Assembly: GCF_029960785.1 (NCBI RefSeq)
Contig: NZ_JASBQE010000003.1
Span: forward strand, 124,001-188,000
DNA length: 64,000 nt
Reading direction: 5' to 3'
Source of the DNA: Polyangium sp. 15x6
Lineage (GTDB): Bacteria; Myxococcota_A; Polyangia; Polyangiales; Polyangiaceae
Positions 33,818 through 61,977 of this stretch are shown piece by piece; position 1 is the stretch's first letter, and each line of letters opens with the position of its first letter. The notes under the pieces were generated by a model. It ran no database searches. It worked only from the letters and a program-made list of their open reading frames with translations, and had not been told where the DNA came from. Position numbers and translations under genes: made by a program.

Positions 33818-35953
33818 ATGACGAAGACCGGCTGGACGATGCGCCTCGGGGAGGCGTGCGTGCTCGCGCTCGCGGTCGCGGCTTTTTCGGCCGTTCCCAC
33901 CGCGCTCCGGACGAGCGGCGCGGGCGGGACGTTCCTCGACGGCTTGCTCGTGGGTACGGCGGCGCTCCTGCCCCTCGTCACGCTCTCCATCGTGCTCCTG
34001 CGCGCCGCGGGGCGCGGCCTCCGGGGCGTGCTCGGCGCGGGCGCCGGGCCCACGGCGGCGCTCGGGATCGCGCTCTGGATCGGGCTTGCGCTCCCGGCGC
34101 TCGCCGTCCTCGCGGGCCTGCTCAAGGCCCTCACGCATCACCGCGGCCTCGGCGGCGCCACCTTCGGCGTGCTCGGCGCGTTCGTCGTGGTCGCCTGCGC
34201 GCTCGTCGCGCGCCGCATGGTCGAGATCGGCCAGGGGCTCGTCGCGCGTGGCGTTCGCCCGCTCCACGTCGCGGCGGGCGGCGCCGTCGTCTCGGTTCTG
34301 CCGCTTCTCGTCGTCGCGGCTTGGCTTTATCGCGCGTCGGGCGGCACGGGCGCCGCGTCCGTCAGCGCGGCGCTCGTCGACCTCGCGATCGCCGTCCTCG
34401 CGACCGCGCTCGTCGCCTCCATCGAGCTCAGCGACAGGCTCCTCAAGCTCGCCTCCGCGTTCGGCGTCCCCTTCGCCGCGGTGCTCATGATCGCAGCCTC
34501 GGCGCGGCTCGAATCGTCGCCGCCGCTCGGGCGCGCGGTGCAGGCGGGCGGTGGCCTCGCGGCGACGATGCTCTCGGCCCTCGAGCGCTGGACCGATCGC
34601 GACGGCGACGGCATGGGCGCGCATTTCGGTGGCGGCGATTGTGATGAAGGCGATCCTCGGCGCCACCCCGGCGCCGAGGACGTGCCCGGCGACGGCATCG
34701 ATCAGGACTGCAGCGGCGCCGACACGCCTCGCCCCGAGGCGCCGGCGAAAGCCCCCGCGGCCTCGCCCGGCTCCGCGCCGCCTCCGTCGTCGGCCACGCC
34801 TGCGCCCGCGCCTGCGCCGTCCGCGCCCGCGCCTGCGGGCAAGGCCCTCGATCCTTCGCGCCCGGACATCCTGCTCATCACGCTCGACACCGTGCGCGCC
34901 GATCATACGAGCGCGTACGGTTACGACCAGAAGACCACGCCGCACCTCGAAGAGCTCGCCGCGCGCGGCGTCCTCTTCGAGCATGCGTACGCCACGGGCA
35001 GCGACACCCAGCGCGCGCTCGCCCCGCTCGTCTCGGGCAAACCCCTCTCGCAGACCCCGCACAACCGCCGCGAGTGGCCCACGCTGGCGGACGAGATCGA
35101 CACGGTCGCCGAGCGCATGAAGCGGGCCGGGTATGCGACGGCCGCCGTCGTCTCGTTCACGTGGCTCAGCGAGGATCGTGGCTTCGCGCAGGGCTTCGAT
35201 CGGTTCGAGCCCGTCTATCGCGAGGAGCACCCCGAGCGCAGCGTCACGGGCGCGCTCGCCACGCGTGCGGCCCTCTCCGTCCTCGAAGACCTCGGCAAGA
35301 AGGACGCGCCGATCTTCCTCTGGATCCACCTCTTCGACGCGCACGAGCGTTACCTCGAGCACGCGGGCCTGCGCTTCGGCCGCGGCCAGGAAGGCCTCTA
35401 CGACGGCGAGATCGCCTTCGTCGACAAGCAGATCGGGCAGATCGCGGCGTTCGTGTCGAAGTGGAGCCGCGCCTCCCGCGTCGCGTGGATCGTCCACGGC
35501 TCCCACGGCGAGGGCTTCGACGAGCACGGCGACAAGGGGCACGGCTCTTCGCTCTACGAGGAGATGATCCGCGTGCCCCTCGTCGTCGCGCTGCCCGGGG
35601 GACGCCCGGGTCGATACGGCGACGGCGCGGTCAGCACGCTCGACGTCGCTCCCACGGTGCTCGCCTTGGGCAACGCGCCGCTCGACGGCGTCTCGGGCGT
35701 CTCGCTCCTGCCTCACGCGCGCCTCGAACCGAATGCGCCGCGCCGTCCTCCCGTGCTCGCGTATGCTTCGAAGCGGGTCGCCTTGATCGATTGGCCCCTC
35801 AAGCTCATGGTGATCGAGCGCAAGAAGCAGAACCGCAACTTCCTCTTCGATCTCGGGGCCGACCCGCGCGAGACGAAAGACCTCTCGGAAGGCCGTCCGG
35901 ACGACGTGGCCCGGCTCGTGAAGCTCGCCACCGAGATTGCACCATCACCCTAG
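33818..35953 (+). CDS. Membrane-anchored sulfatase/phosphotransferase-like protein
   Basis: A 711-residue protein. About seven N-terminal membrane helices (residues 1-245) are followed by an acidic loop (about 258-300) of the MopE-type metal-binding pattern D-R-D-G-D-G, G-D-C-D-E-G-D and D-G-I-D-Q-D-C-S-G, an Ala/Pro linker, and a sulfatase domain (about 345-711) starting D-I-L-L-I-T-L-D-T-V-R-A-D-H. The overall layout is like LtaS and related extracytoplasmic phosphotransferases. At the usual C-x-P-x-R maturation site it has S-D-T-Q-R, so no Cys for formylglycine; the nearby Thr or Ser would have to serve. An FGE-like gene follows 19 bases downstream. Confidence 0.82.
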   Translation: MTKTGWTMRLGEACVLALAVAAFSAVPTALRTSGAGGTFLDGLLVGTAALLPLVTLSIVLLRAAGRGLRGVLGAGAGPTAALGIALWIGLALPALAVLAGLLKALTHHRGLGGATFGVLGAFVVVACALVARRMVEIGQGLVARGVRPLHVAAGGAVVSVLPLLVVAAWLYRASGGTGAASVSAALVDLAIAVLATALVASIELSDRLLKLASAFGVPFAAVLMIAASARLESSPPLGRAVQAGGGLAATMLSALERWTDRDGDGMGAHFGGGDCDEGDPRRHPGAEDVPGDGIDQDCSGADTPRPEAPAKAPAASPGSAPPPSSATPAPAPAPSAPAPAGKALDPSRPDILLITLDTVRADHTSAYGYDQKTTPHLEELAARGVLFEHAYATGSDTQRALAPLVSGKPLSQTPHNRREWPTLADEIDTVAERMKRAGYATAAVVSFTWLSEDRGFAQGFDRFEPVYREEHPERSVTGALATRAALSVLEDLGKKDAPIFLWIHLFDAHERYLEHAGLRFGRGQEGLYDGEIAFVDKQIGQIAAFVSKWSRASRVAWIVHGSHGEGFDEHGDKGHGSSLYEEMIRVPLVVALPGGRPGRYGDGAVSTLDVAPTVLALGNAPLDGVSGVSLLPHARLEPNAPRRPPVLAYASKRVALIDWPLKLMVIERKKQNRNFLFDLGADPRETKDLSEGRPDDVARLVKLATEIAPSP

Positions 35954-48082: not shown

Positions 48083-48688
48083 TCAATCGCGGCTGGCCGT
48101 CAGGACGAACTGCTCGCGGAGCGCGGCCTTCTTCGATTCGTGCCGGACGTGAATCTCGTAGCGGCCCGGGTGCGCGACGGCGATCCGCAAAGGCACGCCT
48201 CTACCATTGTGATGCGTGAACTTGTGCACGCAGCGCGCCTCGACACAATGCCGTTCGAGCTTCGTCTCGCTCTCCGACGGGAGCTCTACGCGCACGTGCG
48301 TGGGCACTTCCAGGCTCACGAGCGCCGGCTGATCGTCGTGGTGTTGCGTCTGCAGGTGGAGCTCGGTCCAGGCATGCCCCGCCTCCGGCAAGGCGACGGC
48401 GCGCTCCTCGACGCGCACGACCTCGGCGGCCTTCGAGCGCACATGCCCCCAGACGCCATAGACGAGCGCCGCCGCGAGGGCCATCGCGGGCACGAGGCGT
48501 ACGAAGGCCGAGCCGCCGCTCTGGCGGGGTTTGGCCGGGACATTCGTCGTGCGGCGTTCGGAGGCCGAGCGCTCGGGCAGACCCGAAAACGTGCGCTCGA
48601 CGAGCGATTGCGGAGGCTTGATCTGGCGGAGGGCGCGAATCTCCTCCTCGAGCTTCTCGGGGAGCGGGGGCAGGTCTTTCGAATTCAT
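48083..48688 (-). CDS. Single-pass membrane protein coupled to the ECF sigma factor
   Basis: A 201-residue protein. A cytoplasmic N-terminal segment of about 62 residues (L-P-E-K-L-E-E-E-I-R-A-L) precedes one membrane helix (about 63-83) and an extracytoplasmic beta-rich domain with Cys-His pairs (H-C-V-E-A-R-C-V-H-K-F). The position fits an anti-sigma factor, and its ATG overlaps the sigma stop (ATGA), but the zinc H-x3-C-x2-C motif of ZAS anti-sigma proteins is missing. The role as a sigma regulator is inferred from context only. Confidence 0.7.
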   Translation of the reverse strand: MNSKDLPPLPEKLEEEIRALRQIKPPQSLVERTFSGLPERSASERRTTNVPAKPRQSGGSAFVRLVPAMALAAALVYGVWGHVRSKAAEVVRVEERAVALPEAGHAWTELHLQTQHHDDQPALVSLEVPTHVRVELPSESETKLERHCVEARCVHKFTHHNGRGVPLRIAVAHPGRYEIHVRHESKKAALREQFVLTASRD

Positions 48689-49284
48689 GTCGATTCCTCC
48701 TCCTCCCTCGCCGGCGTTTCGGGCTTCGCCGCCACGAGCTTTTCATAGGCCACGCGCAGACGCGCGCGCCCGCGGGCATGTCGGCTCTTCACGGTCCCCT
48801 TGGGGACACCGAGGATCTCGGCCACGCGATCGTATCCGAGCTCCTCGATGTCGCAGAGGACCACCACCGTGCGGAACTCCTCGGGCAAGGTCTGCAGGCA
48901 CGCGAGGAGCTGGCCCGCGTGCTCGTTCTGGATCACCTGCGCCTCGGGGCTCTTTCGCTCGTCCTCCGTTCCGAATCCGAACGCCGACGCGCATGCATCG
49001 ACGAATTGCTCGAAGAGCCCGCGCCGCCGCGCCTCGGTCCGCCGCGCCTCCAGGTGCTCGTGCCGGGCAATCCCGCAAATCCAGACCACGAGGTCGCTCC
49101 GGCCCTCGAACGAGGCTGCGTTCGCGTAGGCCTTGATGAGCGTGTTCTGAAAGAGATCGTCGGCGCGGTCGCTGTCGCCCGAGAGGGCGAGGCAGAATCG
49201 ATAGAGCCGTGGCAGGACCGGGCGAACCGCCGCCTCAAACTGCGCGCGGCCTTCCGCGAGGGACGTGGATTGCGGAGCGGCCAT
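48685..49284 (-). CDS. ECF-type RNA polymerase sigma factor
   Basis: A 199-residue sigma-70-family factor of ECF size. Region 2 reads A-D-D-L-F-Q-N-T-L-I-K-A-Y and region 4 reads L-P-E-E-F-R-T-V-V-V-L, then G-Y-D-R-V-A-E-I-L-G-V-P-K-G-T-V-K-S-R. The start at 49284 is chosen as a typical distance from region 2; 49302 is also possible. It is coupled by ATGA to the membrane protein downstream. The leader contains a perfect 7-bp inverted repeat (GCGGAAG/CTTCCGC, 49357-49377). The stimulus is unknown. Confidence 0.93.
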   Translation of the reverse strand: MAAPQSTSLAEGRAQFEAAVRPVLPRLYRFCLALSGDSDRADDLFQNTLIKAYANAASFEGRSDLVVWICGIARHEHLEARRTEARRRGLFEQFVDACASAFGFGTEDERKSPEAQVIQNEHAGQLLACLQTLPEEFRTVVVLCDIEELGYDRVAEILGVPKGTVKSRHARGRARLRVAYEKLVAAKPETPAREEEEST

Positions 49285-49436
49285 GGAGAACCCGTCGAGC
49301 ATCGGCGACGACGGGGCCACTCTAGCGTAGTCGAGACGCGGGGCCACCCCCGGAAAGCGGAAGATCTGTCCTTCCGCGGAGAACGCCCGTGATTCGGAGG
49401 TGGCGCGCATGTCCGGAGTGGGACGGAACGAGCTCG

Positions 49437-49452
49437 GCCCGGGTTCCCGGGC
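49437..49452 (-). terminator. Hairpin at the end of the DAB-type operon
   Basis: A perfect inverted repeat GCCCGGG / CCCGGGC around TT, 20 bases beyond the stop of the last NuoM-like gene. There is no T-run, so it is only a candidate. Confidence 0.35.
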
Positions 49453-49472: not shown

Positions 49473-50999
49473 TCACGGGTGCGCGAGGGCGGCGGAGGTC
49501 CCGGGGCGCGCGAGGGCCTCGGCGCTCGGGCCGACGATCGCGAGCAAGGGCCGCGGGTACAGGCCGACCACGAGCACGAGAATGGCGAGGCACCCGACGA
49601 CGCCCCATTCGAGGGGACGGAGGTCTTTCATCGAGGCGACGCGCGGGCGCGTCACCGGGCCGAGGAAGACCTGCTCGAAGACCCGGAGGACGTAGGCCGC
49701 GCCGAGGATCGTGCCGAGGAGCGCGAACCCGAGCAGCGGGAGGCTCGTTTCATAGGCCGAGAGCAGGACGAGGTGCTCGCCGGGGAAGCCGCTCGTGCCG
49801 GGGACGCCGATGCCGGCGAGGCTCAAGAGCAAGAACATCACGGCCGCGCGCGGCGCTTTCTGGGCGACGCCGCCGAGCGCCGAGACCTCGGACGAACCCA
49901 CGCGGCTCTGCAAAAAGCCGGTCAGGAAGAACAGGCCGGTCGCGGACAAACCCAGGTTCAGCATCGCGAGCACCGCGCCGGAGAGGCCCTCCGCCTTGCC
50001 CGACGAGATGCCGACGAGGACGATGCCCACGTGGCTCAGGCACGCGAACGAGAGCATGCGCCGCAGGTTTGGCTGGACGAGCGCGACGAGCGCGCCGTAC
50101 ACGACGCCCGTGACGCCGACGGCGCCGAGGAGCCACGCATAACGCGCCGTGGCCTCGGGGAGCAGCGGCACGAGGAAGCGGAGCACGCCATAACTTCCGA
50201 GCTTGAGTCCGGTCAAAAGCACGCCGATTCCCACGGGGCACTCGCGCAGCATCGTGGGCATCCAGGTGTGGAGCGGGACGAAGGGGCCCTTGACGGCGAA
50301 GCCGGTGAGCATCGTGAAGAACACGATCGGGCCGATCGCCGCCGGGACCGGCCTCGCGCGGAGGACGAGCCAGTCGAAGGTGTACGGATCGGCCGGGCTC
50401 TGCCGGCCCCCGACCGCGAGCAGGATGATGCCGAGGAGGAGCGGCCCCGAGGCGGCCAGCATCGTGAGCACGAACTTCATCGCCGCATACCGGCGCTCGG
50501 GGCCCACGCCCCAGAGGCTCACGAGGAAATAAATGGGGACGAGCGACGCCTCCCAGAACACGAAAAAGAGGACGAGGTCGAGCGACGAATAGATGCCCAC
50601 GACGATCGCGGAGAGCGCGAGGAGAGACGCGCAGAAGCCGCGGGCGCGGGTCTTCACGTCGTGAAAGGAGGCGACGAGCACGAGCACCGTGAGCATCGAG
50701 GCGACGGGCAAAAAGAGGACGCTCATGCCGTCGACGCCGAGGTGATAACTCGCGCCGAGCGTGGGCATCCACGGGCGCCGCTCGGCGAATTGCACGTCGG
50801 GCGTGCCGGGCGAAAACCGCGCGAGCACGAAGACCGAGAGGAGGAGCTCGATCACGGCGCCGGTGAGCGCCGTCCACCGCGCGCGTTTTTCATCGCCGAT
50901 CGCGAGGACGAGGATCGCCCACGCGAGGGGGAGGAAGATCAGCGTGGAGAGGACGGGAAAACCGACCTGATCTGCGGCGAAGATCTCGCGAATTTGCAC
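49473..50999 (-). CDS. NuoM-like proton/ion-translocating membrane subunit (third of three)
   Basis: A 508-residue antiporter-like protein with about 14 helices. The conserved charged residues of NuoM are all there: Glu in V-F-W-E-A-S-L-V-P, Lys in F-A-V-K-G-P-F-V-P-L-H-T-W-M-P, Lys in G-L-K-L-G-S-Y-G, and a C-terminal Glu in G-F-P-G-E-H-L. The start is a GTG with GGGAGG upstream. It is the last gene of a five-gene operon with dabA and lies 23 bases after the second NuoM-like gene. As no other complex I genes are present, it probably works in the DAB-type complex. Confidence 0.9.
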   Translation of the reverse strand: MQIREIFAADQVGFPVLSTLIFLPLAWAILVLAIGDEKRARWTALTGAVIELLLSVFVLARFSPGTPDVQFAERRPWMPTLGASYHLGVDGMSVLFLPVASMLTVLVLVASFHDVKTRARGFCASLLALSAIVVGIYSSLDLVLFFVFWEASLVPIYFLVSLWGVGPERRYAAMKFVLTMLAASGPLLLGIILLAVGGRQSPADPYTFDWLVLRARPVPAAIGPIVFFTMLTGFAVKGPFVPLHTWMPTMLRECPVGIGVLLTGLKLGSYGVLRFLVPLLPEATARYAWLLGAVGVTGVVYGALVALVQPNLRRMLSFACLSHVGIVLVGISSGKAEGLSGAVLAMLNLGLSATGLFFLTGFLQSRVGSSEVSALGGVAQKAPRAAVMFLLLSLAGIGVPGTSGFPGEHLVLLSAYETSLPLLGFALLGTILGAAYVLRVFEQVFLGPVTRPRVASMKDLRPLEWGVVGCLAILVLVVGLYPRPLLAIVGPSAEALARPGTSAALAHP

Positions 51000-51022
51000 G
51001 ACGAAGCGCCTCCCGAGCGCCC

Positions 51023-52585
51023 TTACGGGGCGCCCTCCCCGTGCATCACGAGGGACGAGTGCGGTTTGGCGTGCTCGAGCCGCGTGGACATGGCGCGGAT
51101 CGAGCCGTCCACGACCTCGAGCAAGGGGTGAGAGAAGAGCCCGAGGCCCACGATGATCGCGCCGACCGCGCCGGCGATGACGAGCTCGCGCGGGCCGAGG
51201 TCACGCACGCTCTTGCCGCGCGTCGATTTCGCTTCGGCCACGGGAGAGCGAGGCGGGGACGCGGCGGGGGCGAGGAAGGCGCGCTGGAAATAACGCAAGA
51301 GGTAGGCGGCCCCGAGCAAGCTGCCGAGGCCGACCGCGATGGCCATGATGCCGTGCCGCGCGCCGAGCGCGCCCACGACGACGAGGTGCTCGGCCTCGAA
51401 GCCGCTCGTCCCAGGCATTCCGATCGTCGAGAGGCCGACGAGCAGGAACGTGAACGAGAGCAGCGGCGCGCGATGCGAGAGCCGCGCGGCGCGATCGATC
51501 TCGGTCGAGCCGAGGCGGCGGTGCAAGAAGCCCGCGACGAAATAAAGCCCGGCCGCGCTGAGGCCGACGTTCAGCGTGACGAGCAGCGCGCCCGACAAAC
51601 CTTCCACGTTGAGCGCAGAGAGCCCGACGAGCACGGCGCCCGTGTGCGCGAGGCAAGCGAACGCGACGAGGCGACGCAGGTTTGTCTGGACGAGCGCGAG
51701 GAGGGCGCCGTAGAGCATCCCGACGACGCCGAGGATCGCCAGAATGGAACCGTGGCGATGCGCGGCGACCGGGAGGAGCGGGACCACGAAGCGCAGGAGG
51801 CCGTACACGCCGAGCTTGGCGCCGACGAGGAAGACGCTCACGCCCACGACTGGGCCTTCGGCCATGACGGGCGGGAGCCAGCCGTGGAAGGGAAAGAGCG
51901 GGATCCGGACGGCGAAGCCGAGGACGAAGAGCCAGAACGCGAGGGATTGCGCCCGCGCCGGCGCGGGCATGTCGAAGAGCGCGTCGAGGGAGAATCGACC
52001 GCCGGTGACGCGGCCGAGGACGATCGCGCCGGCGAGGACGAGCAGGACGCCCATCGCATTGAGCGCCGCATAACGACGCGCCGCCGCGTGCCTCCCCGGC
52101 CCCGTGCCCCAGCTCCGCACGAGCAGCGTGCCAGGTACGAGCTCGAGCGCGGCGAACACCCAGAAGAGCAGGAGATCGAGCGCGACGAACGCGCCCATGA
52201 GCGTCGACTGGAGGCAGAAGATCGCGGCGAGGTAATGGCCGGGCCGCTCTTTGGATGCGACCTGCGCGTGAAGGATGACGAGCAGCGCGAGCAGCGCCGT
52301 CAGCGGCAGAAAGAGGACGCTGATGCCGTCGACGCCGACGTGATAGGCGAAATGGCCGAAGAGCGGGACGCGCTCGACGAGCTGGAGCGCGGAGGTGTGC
52401 CGCTCGAACCGGGCGACGACCATGATGGCGAGGACGAGCTCGAGCGCGGCGCCGCCGAGGCCGATGGCATACACGTGGCGCGCGTTTTTCAGGGAACGGA
52501 CGAATGCCGCGGTGAGGAGCGGCACGAGGACGAGCGCGCTCAGGACCGGGAAGGGCAAGGCCGAGGAATAGGGAATCTCGTTCAT
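51023..52585 (-). CDS. NuoM-like membrane subunit with altered key residues (second)
   Basis: A 520-residue protein of the same fold. It keeps Lys in G-A-K-L-G-V-Y-G and Glu in G-F-E-A-E-H-L, but the helix-5 Glu is replaced (V-F-A-A-L-E-L-V-P, with Glu moved two positions) and the helix-7 Lys is Arg (F-A-V-R-I-P-L-F-P-F-H-G-W-L-P). Ion transfer through this subunit may be changed. The ATG at 52585 lies 2 bases after the NuoL-like gene stop, so translation is coupled. Confidence 0.9.
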   Translation of the reverse strand: MNEIPYSSALPFPVLSALVLVPLLTAAFVRSLKNARHVYAIGLGGAALELVLAIMVVARFERHTSALQLVERVPLFGHFAYHVGVDGISVLFLPLTALLALLVILHAQVASKERPGHYLAAIFCLQSTLMGAFVALDLLLFWVFAALELVPGTLLVRSWGTGPGRHAAARRYAALNAMGVLLVLAGAIVLGRVTGGRFSLDALFDMPAPARAQSLAFWLFVLGFAVRIPLFPFHGWLPPVMAEGPVVGVSVFLVGAKLGVYGLLRFVVPLLPVAAHRHGSILAILGVVGMLYGALLALVQTNLRRLVAFACLAHTGAVLVGLSALNVEGLSGALLVTLNVGLSAAGLYFVAGFLHRRLGSTEIDRAARLSHRAPLLSFTFLLVGLSTIGMPGTSGFEAEHLVVVGALGARHGIMAIAVGLGSLLGAAYLLRYFQRAFLAPAASPPRSPVAEAKSTRGKSVRDLGPRELVIAGAVGAIIVGLGLFSHPLLEVVDGSIRAMSTRLEHAKPHSSLVMHGEGAP

Positions 52586-52587
52586 GG

Positions 52588-54753
52588 TCAAACGGCCCAG
52601 CGGACGACGACGAACAGGGACAGGACGACGAGCGCCCCGACGACGACGGGCCTCTCGAGCAGCGCCTCGACGTGATCGAGGGTGCGTCCGATGAGGTCGC
52701 CGGTGATCGGAATGCCGCGGCCGATCGCGCGGCGCACGATGTGCTTCTCGACGAGGTGCGCGAGCGCCGCCGCGTATTGAAGGATCCGGCCCGCGATGCC
52801 GCGGCCCCGCGCGAAATCGTCCTCGGCGCTGGGCGCCGGGGGTGGCTCTTCGCCGTGCGTGAGCGCAGCGCCGCCCGTGGTCTGGCGTTCGAGGGCCGCG
52901 CGTACGGCCGCGAAAGGATCGGCGTCGTCGATCTCGCCGGCGAGGACCTTTTCCTGGAACGTCGCGAGCGGCGCGGGCGCGTCCTCGGGCGAGAGCGGGC
53001 GGCCGAAGGCGCGATCGAGGAGCGAGGCGTCGAGGCGGTCGAGCGCGCGGCCGAGGCGGAGAATGGGCGCGACGAGGAAGCGCTCGTAAAGAGGTTCGAG
53101 CCAGAATCGCGCGAGCGCCGTGACGTAGAGGCCACGCAGGCGCGTCGGCAAAATGCCCGGCCGCTCGGGCGCGGCGCGGTGGAAATAAAGGGCCGTCGCC
53201 CAGCCCGCGACGAGCAGGCATCCGAGCAGGAGCATGAGGCCGAAGGCCCAGAACGGATGCGCGGCGCGGCCGAGGCCGCCACGCTTCAGCAAGGGGTCGA
53301 GGACGAGGTGAAAGAGGCCGTGCGGCCGTCCTCCGGGCGCGAGGCCGAGCGAGAGGCTGACGGCGCCGACGACCGCGGGGGCGATCCACGCCGGGCCGAA
53401 TTCGACGAACGAGGAGACGGTCTTCCACTCGGCGCCCTTGCCGGCATTCGCGAGGCCACGCTGCGCGAACCGGAGGAGATAATGGCCGCCGCAAAAGAGG
53501 GCCATTCCAGTGCCCGCCGCGGAGAGGAAGGCGCCGGGAGAGAGCGGCGCGTCCGGGCCGGCCCAGATCTCCGTGAGGAAGGGCAATGCGAGGACGCCGA
53601 GCAGGCCCGCGAGCAAGAGCCAGAAGGCCGGCTCGATCTCGCCCGCGACGGGGCGCTCTTCGCGAGACGGCTCGTCGCGCGTGACGAGGAGCAGGGTGCT
53701 CGGCGCCGTGAGGAACTGCGCGCCGCGGAGGAGCGCGTGCGCGAAGAGGTGAAACAGCGCAATGCCGCGGGCCCCGAGCCCGACCGCGAGGAACATGAGC
53801 CCGAGCTGGCTCACCGTGGAGAAGATGAGCCCGCTTTTCGCGTCCGTCTGCACGAGGCTCACGAGGCCGCCGTACAGCGCGGTCGCGGCGCCCATCGCAG
53901 CCATCGCGCGCAGCACGTCGGGCGCGTGCACGAGCACGGGGTTCATGCGCAGCACGAGGAAGAGGCCCGCCGTGACCATGACGGCGCCGTAGAAGAGCGC
54001 GCTCGAAGGCGTCGGTCCCTCCATGGCGCGCGAAATCCACGGCGAAAACGGGAGCTGCGCGGATTTCGCAGCCGCCGCGACGAGCAGGCAGAACCCGAGG
54101 GCCGAGAGCGCCCCGTGGTTCGTGGTCTCCGCGGCGCGGAAGAGCGACGAATAGCTGACCGTGCCGAGCTCGTGCCAGGCGATGAAGATCGCGCAGAGGA
54201 AGGCCGCGTCGCCGATGCGGTTCGTCACGAACGCATACGTCGCGGCCCGGGCCGGCGTCTTGCGTTGGTAATGGTATCCGATGAGCAGGTACGAGGCGAG
54301 GCCCGCGCCCTCCCAGCCCACGAACGTCATCACGAGGTTGCCGCCGAGCACGAGCAGGAGCATGGCGGCGAGGAAGAAGCACATCACCGCGAAGAACCGG
54401 GGGAAGCCGGCCTCGCGGTGCATGTAATTCGTCGAGAACCCGAGGACGAGCGCGCCGAACCCGGTGACGAGCAACGCGAGCGACGCCGAGAGCGGATCGA
54501 GCAGGAGCTCGAGCGGGGCGCGATACGAGCCGCTCTCGATCCAGGGCGCGACGAAGATCGTCGCGGGCGCGGCGCCGAGCGTGGAGCGCACAAGGAGCGC
54601 TCCGGCGCCGAGGAAGGAGAGCAGGGCCGCGCCGACGGCGAGCCGGCTCGTCGTGCGCTCCCGAAGCGGGCGCCCGCCGAGGGCGAAGAGGCCGATGAGG
54701 ACCGCCGCGACGAGCGGGAACAGCGGAATCAGAATGGCAAGACGCTCAAGCAT
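52588..54753 (-). CDS. NuoL-like subunit, candidate DabB
   Basis: A 721-residue protein with about 16 helices. The N-terminal Oxidored_q1_N segment (L-L-L-D-P-L-S-A-S-L-A-L-L) precedes the antiporter core with Glu in F-V-G-W-E-G-A-G-L-A-S-Y-L-L-I-G and Lys in A-A-A-K-S-A-Q-L-P-F-S-P-W. The His of the H-A-A-T-M-V motif is Tyr here (A-L-F-Y-G-A-V-M-V-T-A-G). A long C-terminal arm (from about residue 540) includes W-L-E-P-L-Y-E and an acidic loop. It overlaps dabA by 8 bases. In known DAB pumps the DabA partner DabB is of this family, so this is the best DabB candidate. Confidence 0.88.
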   Translation of the reverse strand: MLERLAILIPLFPLVAAVLIGLFALGGRPLRERTTSRLAVGAALLSFLGAGALLVRSTLGAAPATIFVAPWIESGSYRAPLELLLDPLSASLALLVTGFGALVLGFSTNYMHREAGFPRFFAVMCFFLAAMLLLVLGGNLVMTFVGWEGAGLASYLLIGYHYQRKTPARAATYAFVTNRIGDAAFLCAIFIAWHELGTVSYSSLFRAAETTNHGALSALGFCLLVAAAAKSAQLPFSPWISRAMEGPTPSSALFYGAVMVTAGLFLVLRMNPVLVHAPDVLRAMAAMGAATALYGGLVSLVQTDAKSGLIFSTVSQLGLMFLAVGLGARGIALFHLFAHALLRGAQFLTAPSTLLLVTRDEPSREERPVAGEIEPAFWLLLAGLLGVLALPFLTEIWAGPDAPLSPGAFLSAAGTGMALFCGGHYLLRFAQRGLANAGKGAEWKTVSSFVEFGPAWIAPAVVGAVSLSLGLAPGGRPHGLFHLVLDPLLKRGGLGRAAHPFWAFGLMLLLGCLLVAGWATALYFHRAAPERPGILPTRLRGLYVTALARFWLEPLYERFLVAPILRLGRALDRLDASLLDRAFGRPLSPEDAPAPLATFQEKVLAGEIDDADPFAAVRAALERQTTGGAALTHGEEPPPAPSAEDDFARGRGIAGRILQYAAALAHLVEKHIVRRAIGRGIPITGDLIGRTLDHVEALLERPVVVGALVVLSLFVVVRWAV

Positions 54754-57700
54754 GGGCCACCCGGGAACGCGCGGGGCGTTCGTCCGGACGAATGAACGCC
54801 GGGGGGAGGAAATCGAGCGTGCCCGAATACCAGGCCGCGGAGCTCTTCACCGTCTTCACCGGGAGGCCCTGCGGCTCCCACGGGATGAAGCCCTTTCCAG
54901 GCTGGAACGACATGCATTCGCCCGTGTCCGGATCCATCGCGACGAGGTGGACCCACGCGTTGCCCACGAGCTCGCGGATGCTCGGCTGCTTTTCGTAGAT
55001 CTTGCCGAGGATCTCGGTCTTCGCCACGACGAGCATCAGGAGCCGCATGGGCTCGTGGATCTCGATCATCTGCTTGGGCAAACCGGTCCTGAGATCCCCC
55101 GAGGCGCCCTCCATCACGCCGATGAGCCCCGCGACGTTGTGGGGGACCTTCGTCCCGCAGCCATACGTCGTGTTGTCGACCGTGGAGAAGTAGTATTCGA
55201 GGCTGATGCCCGCGCCGACGGGGCCGGCGGCGAGCAAGATGCCTTCGAGGATGGTGCCCTCGGGGTCGATGGACGGATCGTACGAGATCAAAAAACATCG
55301 GCGGTCGAGGAAGACGCCCTGCGAGATCGTTCGAGGTCCAACGATGGCGAACGCGTTCGTCGCGTGGCCGAGCTCGGGGCGCGCCTGCGAGAGGTCCGCG
55401 GCGCGGCCGACCACGTGCCGGAGCGCGCGCGCCGGCGTGGGGTTTTTCGGGGCCGACTCGAACTTGCGGCACCGCTCGTGCGCAGAGCGTTCCCGGGCCT
55501 TCTGGAGCACGCTGCGGAGTTCGTCCACGGCGGGGCGGAAGGCGTGCGGGACGTCGACGAGGTCGAAATAGAGGATCTCGTCGGTCGCGGTGTTGTGCTC
55601 GGTTCCGAGGAACCAGGTGTCGTCCGGGATGTCGATGCCTCGCTCCCGCAGGATCGCGCGGACCTCGGGGTTGTTCGCCATGCGCGCGAAGACGCGGGCA
55701 TTCGGGCCGCCGTGCTTGCCGCTGCAGGCACCGCAGTCGTACGCGGAGAGGTGGGGGTTGTTGCGGCTCTCGGAGCCGTGGCCGGAGAGCATGACGAGCG
55801 GCGCGAAATCGCGGACGAGGCCGATGATCCGGAGGAGCGACGTCACGCGATCCGCCTGCTCGGTGAGAGTGAAGTGGGTTTTTCCGAGAGCGCCTTGTTT
55901 TGGTTCCGAACCTTTTTCGCGTTCCCGATCGAGCGGCACCTCGGTCTCGACGGCGGGGAGCGCGGCGTCCTTCGCGCGGCGCGACATGCGATCGAACGCG
56001 CGCGGGAAGAGCAGCCGGCCGAGGACGGGGAAGAGCGAGAAGAACCCGAGGATGTCGATGACGAAATAGGAGGAGACCGGGTTCCGGGTGACCTCGCGGA
56101 TGACGTCGCGGAGCGCCGCGAGCGCGCGCATGCGGAGCGAGCGCGAGGCCCACGCGGGCATCGCCTCGGGGCGCGGGACCTCGCAGAGCTCGGCCGCGGG
56201 CGTCGCGACGATCGGGCAAAGCGGCACGGCCTCGCGCGCGCCGAGCCCCTCGTACGCGATCGCCACGCCGAAGAAGCCCGCCGCGCCGAAGGTCTCGTAC
56301 GAGGGTCGGAGCTCCTCGACGTGCCGGCGGATGGATTCCTCGCGATCGTCGAAGCAGAAGACGATCTGCGCCTCGCGCCGGCCTACGTACGGCTTCTGCG
56401 CGCGGACGTTCGTGGTGAGCGCCTCGAGGACGGCGTCGCGGTAATGGATCTCGTAGGCGTTGTGCCAGATCGGCGTGATGGTGTCGGGGTCGCACGCGTC
56501 GAGCGCGGTGAGCAGGCGCGTGACCCCGTCGAACGAGGTCGCGCGGAGCTCGCCCGGCGAGACGCCGAGGTGCTGCGCGAGCAAGAAGAGGCGGAAGCCG
56601 TGATGGCGCGCGGAATGCCCGGCATTCACGTGCTCGGCGCTCTGCTTCAGGTCGAAGACCATGTCGGCCAGGCGAAGGAGCGCCCCCGCGTCGCCGGCCG
56701 CGGCGGAGGCGGATCGCGCCTCGAACAGGGCGCGCGCGCGCTCGGCGAGGAAATCGGGCAACTCGCCGAGGAAGAGCGCATGCCGGACGAGCAGCTCCGG
56801 CAGGTGGTTCGTGAAGGAATGGCGGAAAGCGTCGATGTCGCCGTCGTGCCCGAAGGCGCGGAGCGACGCGCGCCGCACGAAGAGCACCTCGTAGAAGAGG
56901 CGTACGGCGAGGAACTGGATGAGGTCGATCGGATGCGCGCGCTGCGCCGGGTAATCGGGGTGCGTCTCGCGCCAGTGCACCATGCCCGCGAGCCCGGGCA
57001 AACCCACGCAAATGCGGCGGAGATAAGGCCCCCAGTGCGGCTCGGGCACGCCGAGGCGCTCGAGGCTCTGGAGGATCGCGTCGACGGCGAGCGGCGGTAG
57101 CTCCCGCAGCGCGTCGCGCGCGCCCGGCAAATCTTCGAGTTCGAAGAATCGGTCGTGCTCGGCCATCTTGCGAAACGCGTCGTAAAAGCCGAGCGAGCGG
57201 CCCGCGACGTGCCAGGCTGCGAGGCCCTCGTCGAGGAACGCCATGGTCACGCGCATGATCTGCGGGTGAATTTTCTCGTGGATGTCCTCGCCCGTGAGCG
57301 CGAGGAGCAAATCGCGGTGGCACGTCTCGGGGCCGACCTTGCCGATGTGCTCTTCGAGCCGGCGCGCCGCGTGCGCCATCATCTGCTGACGAGGATCCCG
57401 CGCGGTGAGCTCGGCGATCAGGCTCTCGCTCGACGGCGGCCCGCCGAACGCGGATTCGAGCGCGCGGAGCGCTTCGAACCCGCGCCTTCGCAAATGATCC
57501 GGGCCGAGGTCGTGCACGACGGTGAGGCAGAGGCGCGCGATTTCGCTGGTCGCCGCGCCGGCATGGGGACCGAGCGCGCCGTCCCGCTCTTCGAGGTGCG
57601 CGCGCACGGTGTCGCGGATTCGTGATGCGAGCTCGGCGTCGAGCGGAATGGCCGGGCCGCCCCAGGCTTCGAGGTGCTCGATGCGCTCGAACAGCGCCTC

Positions 57701-58681
57701 GATCCGCGCGCCCACGGGCTCCTCGGGCGTGAGGTGCTCGGCGTGGATCGGGGAGAACGGGTCGGACAAACCAAAGCTCGCGAGGCTCGCGCGGAGCAAG
57801 GAGAGGACGGCGAGGCCCTCGGGATCACGCCGCACGCGCTCGGCGATCGCGGCGAGCGTGCCCTCGACGCCGAAATGCGCGAGGAGCACCCGGCGCACCT
57901 TGCGCACCTCGGCTTCGAGCCAGCGCTCGGGGCGGTTTTTCGCGGGGCTCGCGGCGAGTTTGTCGCGGACGAGGTCGAGGTATCCGGCCCGCGCTTCCTC
58001 CGGGATGCAGAGCGCGTCGAGGGCGCGCGTGACGGCATCGGGATCGGCGCCTTCGTCCGTGGAGCCTTCGAGGCAAGCCTCTTCGAGCACGGCCGCGGGG
58101 ACGGGCGTTGCGAGGAGATCGGCGAGGAGGTCGGCCACCGTGAAATCGCGGCCGACGCGGGCGAGCGCGGCCTCGAATTCGCGCTTCGCTGCGGCGAGCA
58201 GGCGCTCGCGGGCCTCCTTGGAGAGCTCGGGGCGGAGCGTGGAGAAGAAATCAGGCCCGAAGCGCGACTCGGCGCTCTCGCCGGGTTCGAGCGGGTCGAG
58301 GCCGTGGAGCCATGCGAGGCGCTCGACGTCGCGCGTGGTGATCGTCCGGTCACCGATGCGGATCACGGGCTCGGGCTCGACGTTACCCTTGCGCTCGCGG
58401 CGCGCGCGTTCGAGGTCCTCGTCGGTGATCCGGCCGATCGCGTAAAGCCGCCGGTACTCGTCGAGCGGCAGATACCCGCGCCCGCCGAGCACGCGGCGCG
58501 CCTCCAGGACGGCCTCTTCGAAGTGCAGGTGCTGGAAGCCGTGCAGCGTGTTGTGGTGGATGAACGTCTCGATCGGTCCCTGTCCGGGTAGGACGTGGGC
58601 GATGTGGTGGATCTCGTGTTCGAGGTGTTTTCTCGATTCGACCGAGATGCCGCGCATGACGGCGGAGGGGAGGGCGCGCAT
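54746..58681 (-). CDS. dabA: Probable inorganic carbon transporter subunit DabA (UPF0753/DUF2309)
   Basis: A 1311-residue protein. The carbonic-anhydrase-like zinc site is complete: Cys776 and Asp778 in I-V-F-C-F-D-D-R-E-E-S, His968 in M-L-S-G-H-G-S-E-S, and Cys983 in A-Y-D-C-G-A-C-S-G-K-H-G-G. Their spacing agrees with Cys351/Asp353/His524/Cys539 of Halothiobacillus DabA. The N-terminal 400-plus residues are longer than in that protein of about 830. Known role: with DabB it hydrates CO2 to bicarbonate vectorially using the ion gradient. The ATG at 58681 is taken; ATG 58657 is also possible. It lies 7 bases after the first NuoM-like gene and overlaps the NuoL-like gene. Confidence 0.93.
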   Translation of the reverse strand: MRALPSAVMRGISVESRKHLEHEIHHIAHVLPGQGPIETFIHHNTLHGFQHLHFEEAVLEARRVLGGRGYLPLDEYRRLYAIGRITDEDLERARRERKGNVEPEPVIRIGDRTITTRDVERLAWLHGLDPLEPGESAESRFGPDFFSTLRPELSKEARERLLAAAKREFEAALARVGRDFTVADLLADLLATPVPAAVLEEACLEGSTDEGADPDAVTRALDALCIPEEARAGYLDLVRDKLAASPAKNRPERWLEAEVRKVRRVLLAHFGVEGTLAAIAERVRRDPEGLAVLSLLRASLASFGLSDPFSPIHAEHLTPEEPVGARIEALFERIEHLEAWGGPAIPLDAELASRIRDTVRAHLEERDGALGPHAGAATSEIARLCLTVVHDLGPDHLRRRGFEALRALESAFGGPPSSESLIAELTARDPRQQMMAHAARRLEEHIGKVGPETCHRDLLLALTGEDIHEKIHPQIMRVTMAFLDEGLAAWHVAGRSLGFYDAFRKMAEHDRFFELEDLPGARDALRELPPLAVDAILQSLERLGVPEPHWGPYLRRICVGLPGLAGMVHWRETHPDYPAQRAHPIDLIQFLAVRLFYEVLFVRRASLRAFGHDGDIDAFRHSFTNHLPELLVRHALFLGELPDFLAERARALFEARSASAAAGDAGALLRLADMVFDLKQSAEHVNAGHSARHHGFRLFLLAQHLGVSPGELRATSFDGVTRLLTALDACDPDTITPIWHNAYEIHYRDAVLEALTTNVRAQKPYVGRREAQIVFCFDDREESIRRHVEELRPSYETFGAAGFFGVAIAYEGLGAREAVPLCPIVATPAAELCEVPRPEAMPAWASRSLRMRALAALRDVIREVTRNPVSSYFVIDILGFFSLFPVLGRLLFPRAFDRMSRRAKDAALPAVETEVPLDREREKGSEPKQGALGKTHFTLTEQADRVTSLLRIIGLVRDFAPLVMLSGHGSESRNNPHLSAYDCGACSGKHGGPNARVFARMANNPEVRAILRERGIDIPDDTWFLGTEHNTATDEILYFDLVDVPHAFRPAVDELRSVLQKARERSAHERCRKFESAPKNPTPARALRHVVGRAADLSQARPELGHATNAFAIVGPRTISQGVFLDRRCFLISYDPSIDPEGTILEGILLAAGPVGAGISLEYYFSTVDNTTYGCGTKVPHNVAGLIGVMEGASGDLRTGLPKQMIEIHEPMRLLMLVVAKTEILGKIYEKQPSIRELVGNAWVHLVAMDPDTGECMSFQPGKGFIPWEPQGLPVKTVKSSAAWYSGTLDFLPPAFIRPDERPARSRVAHA

Positions 58682-58688
58682 ACCAGAC

Positions 58689-60149
58689 TCATCCGTGGAA
58701 GAGCGTCGCCATGTGCGAGACCGTGGCGGCGAAGAGATCGAGCGCGGCGCGCGGGGCGACGCCGAGCGCGACGATGAGCACCCCGAGCGGCGCGGCGGCG
58801 AAGAGCTCCCGCGGCTCGAGGTCCCGGAGGTGTTTCCAGCGGGGATTCAGGGGGCCGAAGAAGATGCGGCCAATGGCGCGCATCGAATATCCGGCCGTGA
58901 TGAGGACGCCGACGGTCGCGATTCCAGCGAGATATTCGTACCGCTGGAACGTGCCGACGAGCGTGGACAGCTCGCTGACGAACCCGGCGAGCCCGGGCAA
59001 ACCCATCGATCCGAGGAGCGCGAGGGACAGCGCCACGAAGAACCGCGGCGTGACGCTCGCGAGGCCGCCGTAGTGGCGCAAATCGCGGGTCTTCGTGCGG
59101 CGCTCGAGCGCGCCGACGAGGAGGAAGAGCGCGGCGCTGGAGACGCCGTGCGTGCACATCTGCATCGTGGCGCCCGTGAGCCCGGCGCCGTTCAGCGAGG
59201 AGACGCCGATCAAGACGAAGCCCATGTGGCTCATCGAGCCATAGGCCACCATGGTCTTGAGATCGGGCTGGCGAAACGCGAGGAGCGCGCCGTAGACGAT
59301 ATTGACGAGGCCGAGCAGGAAGAGGAGCGGCACGAGGGACTCCGCGCCGGCGGGCAAGAGCGCCGTGAGGCGGAGCAGGCCATACGCGCCCATCTTGGCG
59401 AGCACGGCCGAAAAGACCATGCTGACGGGCGGCTCGGATTCGACGTACGCGAGCGGGAGCCATCCATGCAGCGGGAAGACGGGGATCTTCACCGCGAGGC
59501 CCGCGAAGAGGCCGAGGAAGAGGAGGACCTGCGTCGCCCGGCCGAGCCCGGCGCTCGCATTTTGCATCTCGACCATCCCGAAGCCGTGCTTCGGCACCGA
59601 GAGGTGCAGCGCGAGGATGGCGACGAGCATGAGGACCGAGCCGGCGAGCGTGTACAGGAAGAAGCTCATGCTCGCGGCCGACCGGTTTTTCCCGCCCCAC
59701 ACGCTGACCAGGAAAAACAGGGGGACGAGGGTGAGCTCCCAGAAGACGTAAAAGAGCGACCACGAGAGCGAGGTGAAGACGCCCAGGACCGCGAATTCGA
59801 GGAGCAAGAACCAGGCGAAATATCCCTTCACCCGGTGCGCGCCGTGGAGAGAGGCGACGAGCGCGATGAGCATCACGAGCGTCGTCAGGAGCACCATCGG
59901 AAAGGAAATTCCGTCGACGCCGAGCGCGGCGGAGCCGTCCGCGTCCGGTGACCACGGGAATGGCGCGACGAATTGCAGCGCGGAGGTGGTCCGGTCGAAC
60001 GTGGGGACGAGGCTCCACGAGGCGACGAATGCGATCGCCGCGTGGAAGAGCGCGACGCCCTTGATCAGCCGGACGTTACGTGACGGGAGCAGAATGACGA
60101 AGATCGCGCCGAGCAAGGGCGGAAAGATCGTCAGGAGGAGGCTCGGCAT
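58689..60149 (-). CDS. NuoM-like proton/ion-translocating membrane subunit (first)
   Basis: A 486-residue antiporter-like protein, the first gene of the operon. The four charged positions are intact: Glu in V-F-W-E-L-T-L-V-P, Lys in L-A-V-K-I-P-V-F-P-L-H-G-W-L-P, Lys in L-A-K-M-G-A-Y-G, and Glu in G-F-V-S-E-L-S. The sequence is closest in style to true NuoM. The ATG at 60149 has AGGAGG-poor context; the open frame upstream runs into the divergent promoter region and is antisense to SulP. dabA follows after 7 bases. Confidence 0.9.
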   Translation of the reverse strand: MPSLLLTIFPPLLGAIFVILLPSRNVRLIKGVALFHAAIAFVASWSLVPTFDRTTSALQFVAPFPWSPDADGSAALGVDGISFPMVLLTTLVMLIALVASLHGAHRVKGYFAWFLLLEFAVLGVFTSLSWSLFYVFWELTLVPLFFLVSVWGGKNRSAASMSFFLYTLAGSVLMLVAILALHLSVPKHGFGMVEMQNASAGLGRATQVLLFLGLFAGLAVKIPVFPLHGWLPLAYVESEPPVSMVFSAVLAKMGAYGLLRLTALLPAGAESLVPLLFLLGLVNIVYGALLAFRQPDLKTMVAYGSMSHMGFVLIGVSSLNGAGLTGATMQMCTHGVSSAALFLLVGALERRTKTRDLRHYGGLASVTPRFFVALSLALLGSMGLPGLAGFVSELSTLVGTFQRYEYLAGIATVGVLITAGYSMRAIGRIFFGPLNPRWKHLRDLEPRELFAAAPLGVLIVALGVAPRAALDLFAATVSHMATLFHG

Positions 60150-60336
60150 AAAACAATGCCTATCGCGGGGACGGAGCGTCCCTCGCGTGTGCTGCTTGCG
60201 TCGTGGGACGGGACGAGCACGAAGTTGGTTCCCGGGAACCTGCTCGTAGCCTCGATCCGTCTTGTGGATCGGATCGCACGACCGACGTCGTGGGGAACGG
60301 AATTTCGAATTTCGTGACCGATCCGCAAAGGGTTTT
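60150..60336. promoter_or_regulatory. Divergent promoter region with a 14-bp palindrome
   Basis: The 187 bases between the DAB-type operon and the SulP gene contain the perfect palindrome GGTTCCCGGGAACC at 60227-60240, an AT-richer stretch with a direct AATTTCG repeat (60301-60314), and no gene. It is the natural place for both promoters and for a shared regulator. No consensus -35/-10 pair is clear enough to mark. Confidence 0.5.
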
Positions 60337-61977
60337 ATGGACAAGCCGGACCAGAGCGCCGGTGTGCCCACGGGCGCGCCTTCCATCCGGAACGACCTCG
60401 TCGCCGGATTTCTCGTCTTTCTGATCGCCCTACCGCTTTGCCTGGGTATCGCCATGGCGAGCGGTTTTCCGCCCGTGGCAGGTATCATCACCGCCGTCAT
60501 CGGCGGCGTGGTGGCCACGTGGATAGGCAGCGCGACGCTCACCATCAAGGGGCCCGCCGCGGGGCTCATCGTCATCGCGCTCGGCGCGGTGACGGAGCTC
60601 GGCAATGGAAACGGCTCGGTCGGTTATCGACGCGCCCTCGCCACGATCGTGGTCGCCGCCGTGCTCCAGATCGGGTTTGCCCTCGCGCGCGCCGGAGCCC
60701 TCGGCGACTTCTTCCCCTCGTCCGTGGTGCACGGGATGCTCGCGGCGATCGGCATCATCATCTGCTCGAAGCAGGTCCACGTGGCGCTCGGCGTGACGCC
60801 CGAGGCCAAGGAGCCGCTCCACCTGCTCCTCGAGATCCCGCGGAGCCTCGGGCGCCTGAACCCGGAGATCGCGATCATCGGCGGCGCGAGCCTCGCGATC
60901 CTGTTCTTGTTCCCCGTCGTCTCGAAGCGCGTCCCGGTCCTCAAGAAGATTCCCGCCCCGCTCTTCGTCCTCGCCCTCGCGGTGCCGCTCGCGCACGTGT
61001 TCGACCTCGAGCACGAGCACACGTACACGTTCTCGATCAACCACCACGACTACAAGATCGGCCCGAACTTCCTGGTGAACCTCCCGGGAAACTTGCTCGC
61101 CGCGGTGACGACGCCGGATTTCACCGCGGTGCTCTCGGGGACGTCGCTCAAGTACATCGTGATGTTCGCGCTCGTCGGCAGCATCGAGAGCTTGCTCAGC
61201 GCCAAGGCCGTCGACGCGCTGGATCCGGAAAAGCGCCGCTCGAACCTCGACAAGGACCTGCTCGCGACGGGCGTGGGCAACCTCGTGGCGGGCCTCATCG
61301 GCGGCCTGCCCATGATCTCGGAGATCGTGCGCAGCTCGGCGAACATCGGCTACGGCGCGCGGTCGAAGCTGTCGAACTTCTTCCACGGGCTGTTCTTGCT
61401 GCTCTTCGTGGCGTTCTTGCCCGGCCTCATCCACCGCATTCCGCTCGCGGCCCTCGCGGCGATGCTGATCTACACGGGCACGCGCCTCGCCTCCCCCCAC
61501 GAGTTCGTCAAGACGTTCCGCGTCGGCCGCGAGCAGCTCCTCGTGTTCGTGTCGACGACGGTCGTGACGATCGCGACCGACCTGCTCGTCGGCGTGGCGG
61601 CTGGCATCGTGATCAAGATGGTCATGCACGTCGTGAACGGGGCGCCCATCAAGAGCCTGTTCCGGCCCGACATCGAGGAGCGTTCACTCGGGGATCGCGT
61701 CGTGCTCCGGATCCGGCACGCCGCGGTGTTCAGCAACTACCTGTCGATCAAGGGGAGGCTGGTAAAGCACGAGGCGAAGCACGTGGTCGTCGACTTCGAC
61801 CATGCCCGCCTCGTGGATCACACCGTGATGGAGAAGCTCCACGAGCTCCGGGGCGAGTACGAGCGGAGCGGCCGCGTGCTCGAGGTGATCGGGCTCGACC
61901 GGCACAGGAGCCTGTCGGAGCACCCGCTCGCGGCGCGGAGGAAGATCGCGCTGGAGCGCGCCGGCTCGACACCCTGA
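60337..61977 (+). CDS. SulP-family anion transporter (bicarbonate or sulfate)
   Basis: A 546-residue inner-membrane protein with about 12-14 helices (L-V-A-G-F-L-V-F-L-I-A-L-P-L-C-L-G-I-A-M-A-S-G at the start, broken by Gly/Pro turns) and a C-terminal STAS-like domain (V-V-V-D-F-D-H-A-R-L-V-D-H-T-V-M-E-K). This SulP subgroup is often fused to or beside carbonic anhydrases. With dabA divergent from it, bicarbonate is the more likely substrate, but sulfate is not excluded. The ATG at 60337 has AAAGGG a few bases upstream. Confidence 0.9.
   Translation: MDKPDQSAGVPTGAPSIRNDLVAGFLVFLIALPLCLGIAMASGFPPVAGIITAVIGGVVATWIGSATLTIKGPAAGLIVIALGAVTELGNGNGSVGYRRALATIVVAAVLQIGFALARAGALGDFFPSSVVHGMLAAIGIIICSKQVHVALGVTPEAKEPLHLLLEIPRSLGRLNPEIAIIGGASLAILFLFPVVSKRVPVLKKIPAPLFVLALAVPLAHVFDLEHEHTYTFSINHHDYKIGPNFLVNLPGNLLAAVTTPDFTAVLSGTSLKYIVMFALVGSIESLLSAKAVDALDPEKRRSNLDKDLLATGVGNLVAGLIGGLPMISEIVRSSANIGYGARSKLSNFFHGLFLLLFVAFLPGLIHRIPLAALAAMLIYTGTRLASPHEFVKTFRVGREQLLVFVSTTVVTIATDLLVGVAAGIVIKMVMHVVNGAPIKSLFRPDIEERSLGDRVVLRIRHAAVFSNYLSIKGRLVKHEAKHVVVDFDHARLVDHTVMEKLHELRGEYERSGRVLEVIGLDRHRSLSEHPLAARRKIALERAGSTP

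Follow-up and report, generated by a model that had tools for sequence, protein, structure and literature searches.

Why should a heterotrophic myxobacterium encode DabA, a beta-carbonic-anhydrase-like protein known from bicarbonate pumps, in one tight cluster with four antiporter-like subunits of the kind found in respiratory complex I? This question is raised by a cassette of Polyangium sp. 15x6 (assembly GCF_029960785.1, contig NZ_JASBQE010000003.1), which lies within a stretch of 64,000 nucleotides (positions 124,001 to 188,000 of the forward strand) that we refer to as the window and in whose numbering all window coordinates are given. The cassette occupies the minus strand and consists of a NuoM-like gene (M1), dabA, a NuoL-like gene (L), and two further NuoM-like genes (M2 and M3), with all five open reading frames (ORFs) open. 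An original prediction, made by a model from the sequence alone, had described this gene order, strand and spacing and a divergent SulP-family gene, all of which were confirmed by the ORF coordinates, Pfam and NCBIfam. Judged from gene content and order, a DabA with a zinc site is co-encoded here with one NuoL-like and three NuoM-like subunits as a unit that is kept across phyla, and the cassette is a real, conserved variant DabA system whose membrane arm appears to be of the complex I type. We consider it probable that the five products form one membrane complex, which would spend the proton gradient to hydrate CO2 to bicarbonate; function and assembly are read here from the genes, and the assembly, direction and stoichiometry are predicted.

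Parts of this picture have precedents. In 2017, dabA was described upstream of nuoL, often with NuoM and SulP genes nearby, a multi-subunit complex was proposed, and it was suggested that ion movement may increase with the number of membrane subunits (PMC5700660). The ybcC-nuoL operons of “clade C” in that paper show the same dabA-nuoL order with NuoM and SulP genes nearby, but its passages compared here describe neither this order of five genes nor its classes of subunits and residue patterns, and they mention no role in hydrating CO2. In the open-access literature (subscription papers and supplements being outside the scope), we found no description of the five-gene order and its subunit classes. 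Because the neighborhood type and the function of DabA were already known, the cassette is not categorically new.

Conservation of the five-gene cassette

The genes are separated, from M1 to M3, by 7, −8, 2 and 23 bases as computed from their coordinates, such that dabA shares its operon with a NuoL-family partner, L, which overlaps it by 8 bases. DabA matches PF10070 with 833.6 bits across residues 24-1244, whereas the antiporter domain PF00361 is matched by M1, L, M2 and M3, and PF00662 additionally by L (Pfam). M1, M2 and M3 exceed the NuoM subfamily cut-off of 263.8 bits, with 482.7, 368.3 and 447.1 bits, respectively, and L is NuoL-like yet falls short of the NuoL cut-offs (NCBIfam).

To trace the cassette, named genomes were scanned with an alignment of 12 Polyangiaceae DabA proteins as the query, and the best 80 of at least 577 stretches coding for a relative were kept, so that the sample is biased toward close relatives of this DabA class. 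By a strict recount, the order M1-dabA-L-M2-M3 is present on one strand in 54 of the 80 loci, including four with a fragmentary or cut gene (L094, L099, L122 and L134) and two with an ORF gap of more than 600 bases (L086 and L094). Another 24 loci end within the cassette at contig ends. The last two are a Thiothrix metagenome-assembled genome (MAG; locus L097) with the arrangement M1-dabA-L-dabA-L-M2, in which a tandem second dabA-L pair replaces the fifth gene, and a Nannocystaceae locus (L115), in which the flanks are complete and the set of five genes is not. A sixth antiporter match follows M3 in five loci, that of L120 being a 109-residue fragment; the two sixth genes checked have MrpD- and hydrogenase-4-like best matches in NCBIfam, under the cut-offs.

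The hosts of the five-gene order include Nitrosomonas, Nitrosovibrio, Nitrotoga, Methylobacter, Methylomonas, Thiobacillus and Magnetococcales, as well as MAGs labeled Chloroflexi, Acidobacteria, Actinomycetota and Rubrobacter; the second Thiothrix locus, L091, is cut. Within Polyangiaceae, the family of the window, dabA was found in 38 of 98 genomes, and the 35 stretches taken comprise 10 two-gene L-dabA sets, 5 five-gene sets and 20 that are of dabA-L or dabA-L-M type or cut. All five of these five-gene sets lie in the genus of the window, whose flanks were examined in five of six genomes (G000, G014, G056, G077 and G086, but not G093). In the phylum, dabA was found in 33 of 188 genomes; a manual count of 35 further stretches gave 11 two-gene, 16 dabA-L-M and 6 other or cut sets, together with one full five-gene set (L185) and one that is cut and probably of this type (L182).

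Because it recurs in distant phyla, the five-gene order is far above chance, and this conservation supports the suggestion of the original prediction that DabA, one NuoL-like and three NuoM-like subunits belong together. The opposite outcome envisaged there, that the NuoM genes of relatives never adjoin dabA, is contradicted by the 54 scan loci. Nor is the cassette a myxobacterial peculiarity: its hosts are unrelated, and the five-gene form is the rarer one among the Myxococcota stretches taken.

Membrane subunits of the complex I type

For a comparison of classes, we assembled 60 five-gene sets (59 distinct, as L044 and L066 are the same locus; L097 and L099 included), 14 three-gene sets and 10 two-gene sets, in which relatives were cut to the part similar to the window proteins; their lengths may therefore be off by some residues. 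A subunit tree was built from 30 of the 60 five-gene, 10 of the 14 three-gene and all 10 two-gene sets. All M1 proteins form one clade (30/30), as do all M2 proteins (30/30), M3 contains M2, and the M1 clade groups with complex I NuoM (support 0.957). A single clade (0.983) unites L from five-gene and three-gene sets with L from two dabA-L sets; it joins complex I NuoL (0.984), and the two-gene DabB stand outside this group, in a tree with only two complex I references per subunit and with DabB from one bacterial family; with one complex I reference, the support for L plus NuoL is just 0.685. Consistent with this placement outside the DabB clade, the window L matches complex I NuoL with 242.1 bits versus 108.3 bits for DabB2, and the best match of a two-gene membrane protein is DabB2 (224.5 bits).

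Residue patterns point in the same direction. In complex I, E144 of NuoL belongs to an ion pair at a subunit interface; DabB2 has Ile in its place (PMC13144422). Its equivalent is Glu in 74/74 L proteins of multi-subunit sets and in 0/10 two-gene DabB, and the window L retains it as E148, rather than showing the replacement typical of DAB2. By a simple hydropathy threshold, a hydrophobic stretch is present in the final 30 residues of 56/60 five-gene L, 0/14 three-gene L and 0/10 DabB; the window L has such a NuoL-like C-terminal stretch, with the last hydrophobic helix at about residues 703-721. In complex I, the C-terminal part of NuoL braces its neighbors. The structural model of the window L (mean predicted local distance difference test score, pLDDT, 72.3) matches Escherichia coli NuoL with Z 36.4 and a root-mean-square deviation of 2.8 over 437 aligned residues. 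Transmembrane helices (TM) 1-11 are well modeled, and the C-terminal third is weak (block pLDDT about 43-78), such that the proposed brace rests on the sequence and not on the model. The TM12 region is missing from 49/60 five-gene and 14/14 three-gene L; in the short five-gene L, the missing part is TM12-15, the helices after TM11 being countable in 34 of the 49.

The residues of the NuoM-like subunits were counted on 58 five-gene sets, without L097 and L099. In M1 and M3, the NuoM residues E144, K234, K265 and E407 are kept in 56 to 58 of the 58 sets, the remainder being gaps. M2 keeps E144 in none, K234 in 5, E407 in 12 and K265 in 57, and degeneration is also seen in the one NuoM-like subunit that each of the 14 three-gene sets has (E144, K234 and K265 in none, E407 in 12). 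The grouping of L with complex I NuoL means that this subunit is not simply a DabB with helpers, and thus the original reading of the cassette as a DAB pump enlarged by extra subunits has to be revised.

The cassette is also distinct from complex I and Mrp modules. Neither a complex I peripheral arm nor NuoA, NuoH, NuoJ or NuoK was seen by eye beside the cassette, in agreement with the original prediction, although no profile search for the latter four was made, and no nuo-like genes were seen elsewhere in the likely-gene list of the window (11 genes put to Pfam, the others inspected by eye). A detached complex I module was considered and rejected: the NuoL-M-N set of the genome lies elsewhere, on contig C39, and the cassette is conserved around dabA. 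The MrpA- and MrpD-like genes of the genome are on contig C17; L, M1, M2 and M3 fall into tree clades without Mrp sequences, and no small Mrp-type gene fits within the cassette because none of its intergenic gaps exceeds 23 bases. Separately, in genome G000 of the genus (C218, locus L161:4881-8903), we observed a single open frame of 1341 aa with two PF00361-type regions, one NuoL-like and degenerate and the other NuoM-like; the segment that separates them does not resemble an antiporter.

The active site of DabA and its pairing with L

In the window DabA, the zinc site is formed by C776, D778, R780, H968 and C983, and every DabA compared (60/60 five-gene, 14/14 three-gene and 10/10 two-gene) has the zinc ligands and Asp-Arg dyad of DabA2. 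With a PF10070 protein that has these residues and a PF00361 partner in the same operon, the cassette agrees in gene content with the DAB/DAC inorganic-carbon pumps. The closest characterized system, DAB2 (DabA2-DabB2) of Halothiobacillus neapolitanus, shares with the cassette the zinc site, the beta-carbonic-anhydrase-like core, a NuoL-family partner and, for the window protein, a hydrophobic finger region with an acid (Asp876 for Glu444). The cassette differs from DAB2 in its three additional antiporter subunits, in an L that clusters with NuoL of complex I and retains E144, and in several residues of DabA. Leu658 of DabA2 is reported to be strictly conserved among 150 homologs and to replace the Gln or His of canonical beta-carbonic anhydrases (PMC13144422). 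At this place, Leu is found in 10/10 two-gene DabA, but His in 60/60 five-gene and 14/14 three-gene DabA, including the window protein (H1106), which in this respect is not of the DAB2 type. The His alone shows no new mechanism, because changes of Leu658 in DabA2, for example to Gln, caused no loss in cells and no gain of activity in vitro (PMC13144422). Residues other than those of DabA2 likewise occupy the positions of Ser356, His684 and Pro704 in the multi-subunit DabA, including that of the window, except that 4/14 three-gene DabA share Ser356. The finger acid Glu444 is essential in DabA2 (PMC13144422); an acid occupies its place in only 28/60 five-gene and 0/14 three-gene DabA.

DabA and L vary in length together. 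A DabA of 1252-1335 aa is paired with an L of 689-780 aa in 11/60 five-gene sets, short forms are paired in 49/60, and mixed pairs do not occur. By parsimony on the DabA tree, in which the node joining all five-gene DabA has low support (0.369), both lengths change on the same two branches, one of which lies inside the genus of the window (G014 versus the other four genomes examined). The segments responsible are residues 366-453 and 459-537 of L, corresponding to TM12-15, and residues 167-284 and 339-422 of DabA, which are absent from short relatives. Although two events are few, this suggests that the co-varying parts of DabA and L touch or serve one function. The model of DabA residues 1-1195 has a mean pLDDT of 78.7, and the inserts are mostly high-confidence helices. 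An attempt to assign a function to the insert by fold comparison was abandoned, the matches of residues 346-433 being generic helical bundles (Z ≤7.5). In the fold comparison of DabA, CsoSCA is matched with Z 6.8 over 280 residues; DabA2 is not among the matches listed, and its entry may postdate the fold library.

A proposed proton-driven complex and its alternatives

In the proposed complex, a redox-free, complex-I-like arm would carry a vectorial carbonic anhydrase. DabA would dock on L through the membrane finger, as in DAB2, and the arm would be continued by the three NuoM-like subunits, which L would hold together through its C-terminal extension and last helix, in the manner of complex I. 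Protons flowing back into the cell by way of L, M3 and M1 would power the one-way hydration of CO2 to bicarbonate, with M2 acting as a connector or altered channel. In favor of this model are the conserved gene order and zinc site, the separate phylogenetic grouping of the subunit roles, the interface Glu and last helix of L, the NuoM residues kept in M1 and M3, the carbonic anhydrase genes that adjoin the cassette in some loci, and the reported dependence of DAB2 on the proton-motive force (PMC13144422). The product may feed biosynthetic carboxylases in Polyangium, a heterotroph without a match to ribulose-1,5-bisphosphate carboxylase/oxygenase (RuBisCO), and carbon assimilation in nitrifiers and methanotrophs.

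Energetic estimates constrain the direction. Hydration of CO2 at pH 7.5 yields about −7 kJ/mol, whereas a single proton at 150 mV corresponds to about 14.5 kJ/mol; the reaction is thus unable to export several protons. Outward ion pumping through four subunits by CO2 hydration, a coupling considered in the original prediction, is therefore thermodynamically unlikely, and spending of the gradient is more likely. With one proton per CO2, 150 mV would give an approximately 350-fold excess of bicarbonate over equilibrium, and with three protons, an approximately 1000-fold excess would be reached at only 60 mV. More translocating subunits would mean more protons per CO2, and bicarbonate could therefore be held high at low proton-motive force. 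Such a low-force gear would fit nitrifiers, and the need for it in Polyangium is less clear, given two beta-carbonic anhydrase matches and no RuBisCO match.

Several observations weigh against this model. Neither the operon structure nor the adjacency of SulP proves a complex, M2 has lost key residues, and TM12-15 are missing from L of the three-gene and most five-gene sets. The patchy distribution of the finger acid speaks against one shared coupling route, and the two other beta-carbonic anhydrases of the genome leave the need for the cassette unclear in Polyangium.

Among the alternatives, it is unlikely that DabA and L are an ordinary two-subunit DAB pump, with M1-M3 as a separate, co-expressed antiporter or pH-control module. 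The degeneration of M2 would fit this explanation, and a single membrane subunit suffices for DAB2 and MpsAB (PMC13144422; PMC6689103), but the genes are interleaved in a conserved order, with M1 before dabA and M2-M3 after L, and L lies outside the DabB clade, keeps the inter-subunit Glu lost in DabB and has the NuoL-like C-terminal extension. Also improbable, if anything slightly more so, is sodium/proton exchange or carriage of sodium and bicarbonate, as proposed for MpsAB, with the extra subunits exporting sodium as in Mrp. MpsABC complements a sodium-sensitive E. coli strain (PMC6689103), and both the Mrp- or hydrogenase-4-like sixth genes of some loci and the SulP neighbors are compatible with this possibility; against it, DAB2 is reported to be sodium-independent (PMC13144422) and M1 and M3 retain the lysine/glutamate pattern of NuoM proton channels, even though sequence cannot settle the ion. 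A reverse mode, in which energy released by the reaction at DabA pumps several ions outward, has been proposed, with the number of membrane subunits tied to the number of ions moved (PMC5700660). The His of DabA stands at the transition-state place of canonical beta-carbonic anhydrases, such that DabA may be an efficient catalyst, but CO2 hydration or dehydration would, by the above estimate, release too little energy for several ions and DAB2 is reported to be driven by the proton-motive force (PMC13144422); we regard this mode as very improbable.

The gradient-spending complex can also be set against other known systems. NDH-1MS of cyanobacteria, with CupA on NdhF3, has a zinc-containing, CO2-hydrating protein on the NuoL-like end of an antiporter-like row (PMC6981117), and in the cassette DabA takes the place of CupA. 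The fold of CupA is unrelated to DabA, however, and NDH-1MS is a redox enzyme with a full peripheral arm for which the gradient is not the sole driving force. In Nitrospira, the 2M complex I has an extra NuoM in its membrane arm, and the proton-motive force is thought to drive its uphill reaction (PMC7784846, PMC12342949); it is a complete redox complex without DabA. MpsAB of Staphylococcus aureus is a pair of DabA and a NuoL-family protein that supports this heterotroph at the CO2 level of air (PMC6689103), so the presence of such a system in a heterotroph, which the original prediction found unexpected, is not odd. It differs from the cassette in having two or three genes, none of them NuoM-like, and in being a proposed sodium-bicarbonate cotransporter (PMC6689103).

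More tentatively, and with somewhat less confidence than an even chance, we suggest that the cassette encodes a second kind of DabA machine. A redox-free arm derived from complex I would comprise NuoL, two or three working NuoM-type channels and the C-terminal brace of NuoL; the DabA seated on its NuoL subunit would represent a separate catalytic class, with His rather than Leu at the transition-state position. The whole might work as a geared vectorial carbonic anhydrase that uses several protons per CO2, midway between DAB2 and NDH-1MS, with long and short versions trading TM12-15 of L together with the N-terminal insert of DabA.

Genomic context

The features of the cassette and the divergent gene are listed in Table 1.

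Table 1. Genes of the dabA cassette and the adjoining SulP gene in the window
Gene	Position	Strand	Product and features
M1	58689..60149	-	NuoM-like antiporter subunit, 486 aa; NuoM residues E144, K234, K265, H322 and E407 all kept
dabA	54746..58681	-	Beta-carbonic-anhydrase-like subunit, 1311 aa; long N-terminal form
L	52588..54753	-	NuoL-like subunit, 721 aa; long form with TM12-15
M2	51023..52585	-	NuoM-like, 520 aa; degenerate in part, with Ala for E144 and Arg for K234, but with K265, H322 and E407
M3	49473..50999	-	NuoM-like, 508 aa, GTG start; NuoM residues E144, K234, K265, H322 and E407 kept
SulP	60337..61977	+	SulP-family anion transporter; divergent from M1; Sulfate_transp match (Pfam)

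The start codon of the SulP gene is most likely the ATG at 60337. A SulP gene adjoins M1 in 17 of the 80 scan loci, in some by weak matches. SulP, listed with the pump in the original prediction, is a frequent neighbor of the cassette and at most a candidate part of the complex. Identification of the protein as BicA was rejected (129.7 versus 880 bits). The cassette is followed immediately, with no change of strand (48083-49446), by a gene for an extracytoplasmic function (ECF)-type sigma factor with sigma-70 regions 2 and 4, and next by a gene that may encode an anti-sigma-like membrane protein and has no Pfam match. The cluster appears to end at 49473 because of this sigma factor gene. Elsewhere in the window (33686-35953), a sulfatase-family protein carries a putative metal-binding motif of the MopE type (PF11617) ahead of its catalytic domain.

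Genes for other carbonic anhydrases were counted next to the cassette in 55 scan loci (the 54 full ones and L097), 44 of which have more than 1.2 kb of sequence past the last antiporter gene. Such a gene adjoins the cassette in 14/55 loci (11 CsoSCA-like and 3 beta-carbonic anhydrases), and none was recognized beside the cassette in the window. Of the CsoSCA-like ORFs, eight, mostly in Nitrosomonas, are on the same strand within 80 bases and three are on the other strand; the match exceeds the Pfam cut-off (28.1 versus 21.5 bits) but lies far below the NCBIfam equivalog cut-off (34.7 versus 241.05 bits). In Nitrosomonas-type loci (among them L117:16968-18044, L087 and L106), a CsoSCA-like (CsoSCA2) gene directly follows the cassette. 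The non-carboxysomal CsoSCA2 group is described as widespread and unstudied in PMC9164163, whose section on it does not mention the cassette neighborhood; adjacency to the cassette could hint at the role of CsoSCA2. Expressing DAB2 together with a carbonic anhydrase reportedly did no harm in E. coli and C. necator and was even beneficial (PMC9894237).

In all 6/6 genomes of the genus, we found two beta-carbonic anhydrase matches each and no match to RuBisCO (PF00016), and RuBisCO-based CO2 fixation in the Polyangium host was rejected on the latter ground.

Conclusions

If the proposed complex is borne out, the long-range-coupling arm of complex I can run a non-redox reaction on the gradient alone, in a quinone-free system that would be simpler to study. 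DabA machines with one, two and four membrane subunits would offer a test of whether one ion is moved per antiporter-like subunit per turnover, which has long been debated for complex I. For the nitrifiers and methanotrophs that carry it, the cassette would be a likely source of bicarbonate; it would also be a candidate component for engineering CO2 uptake.

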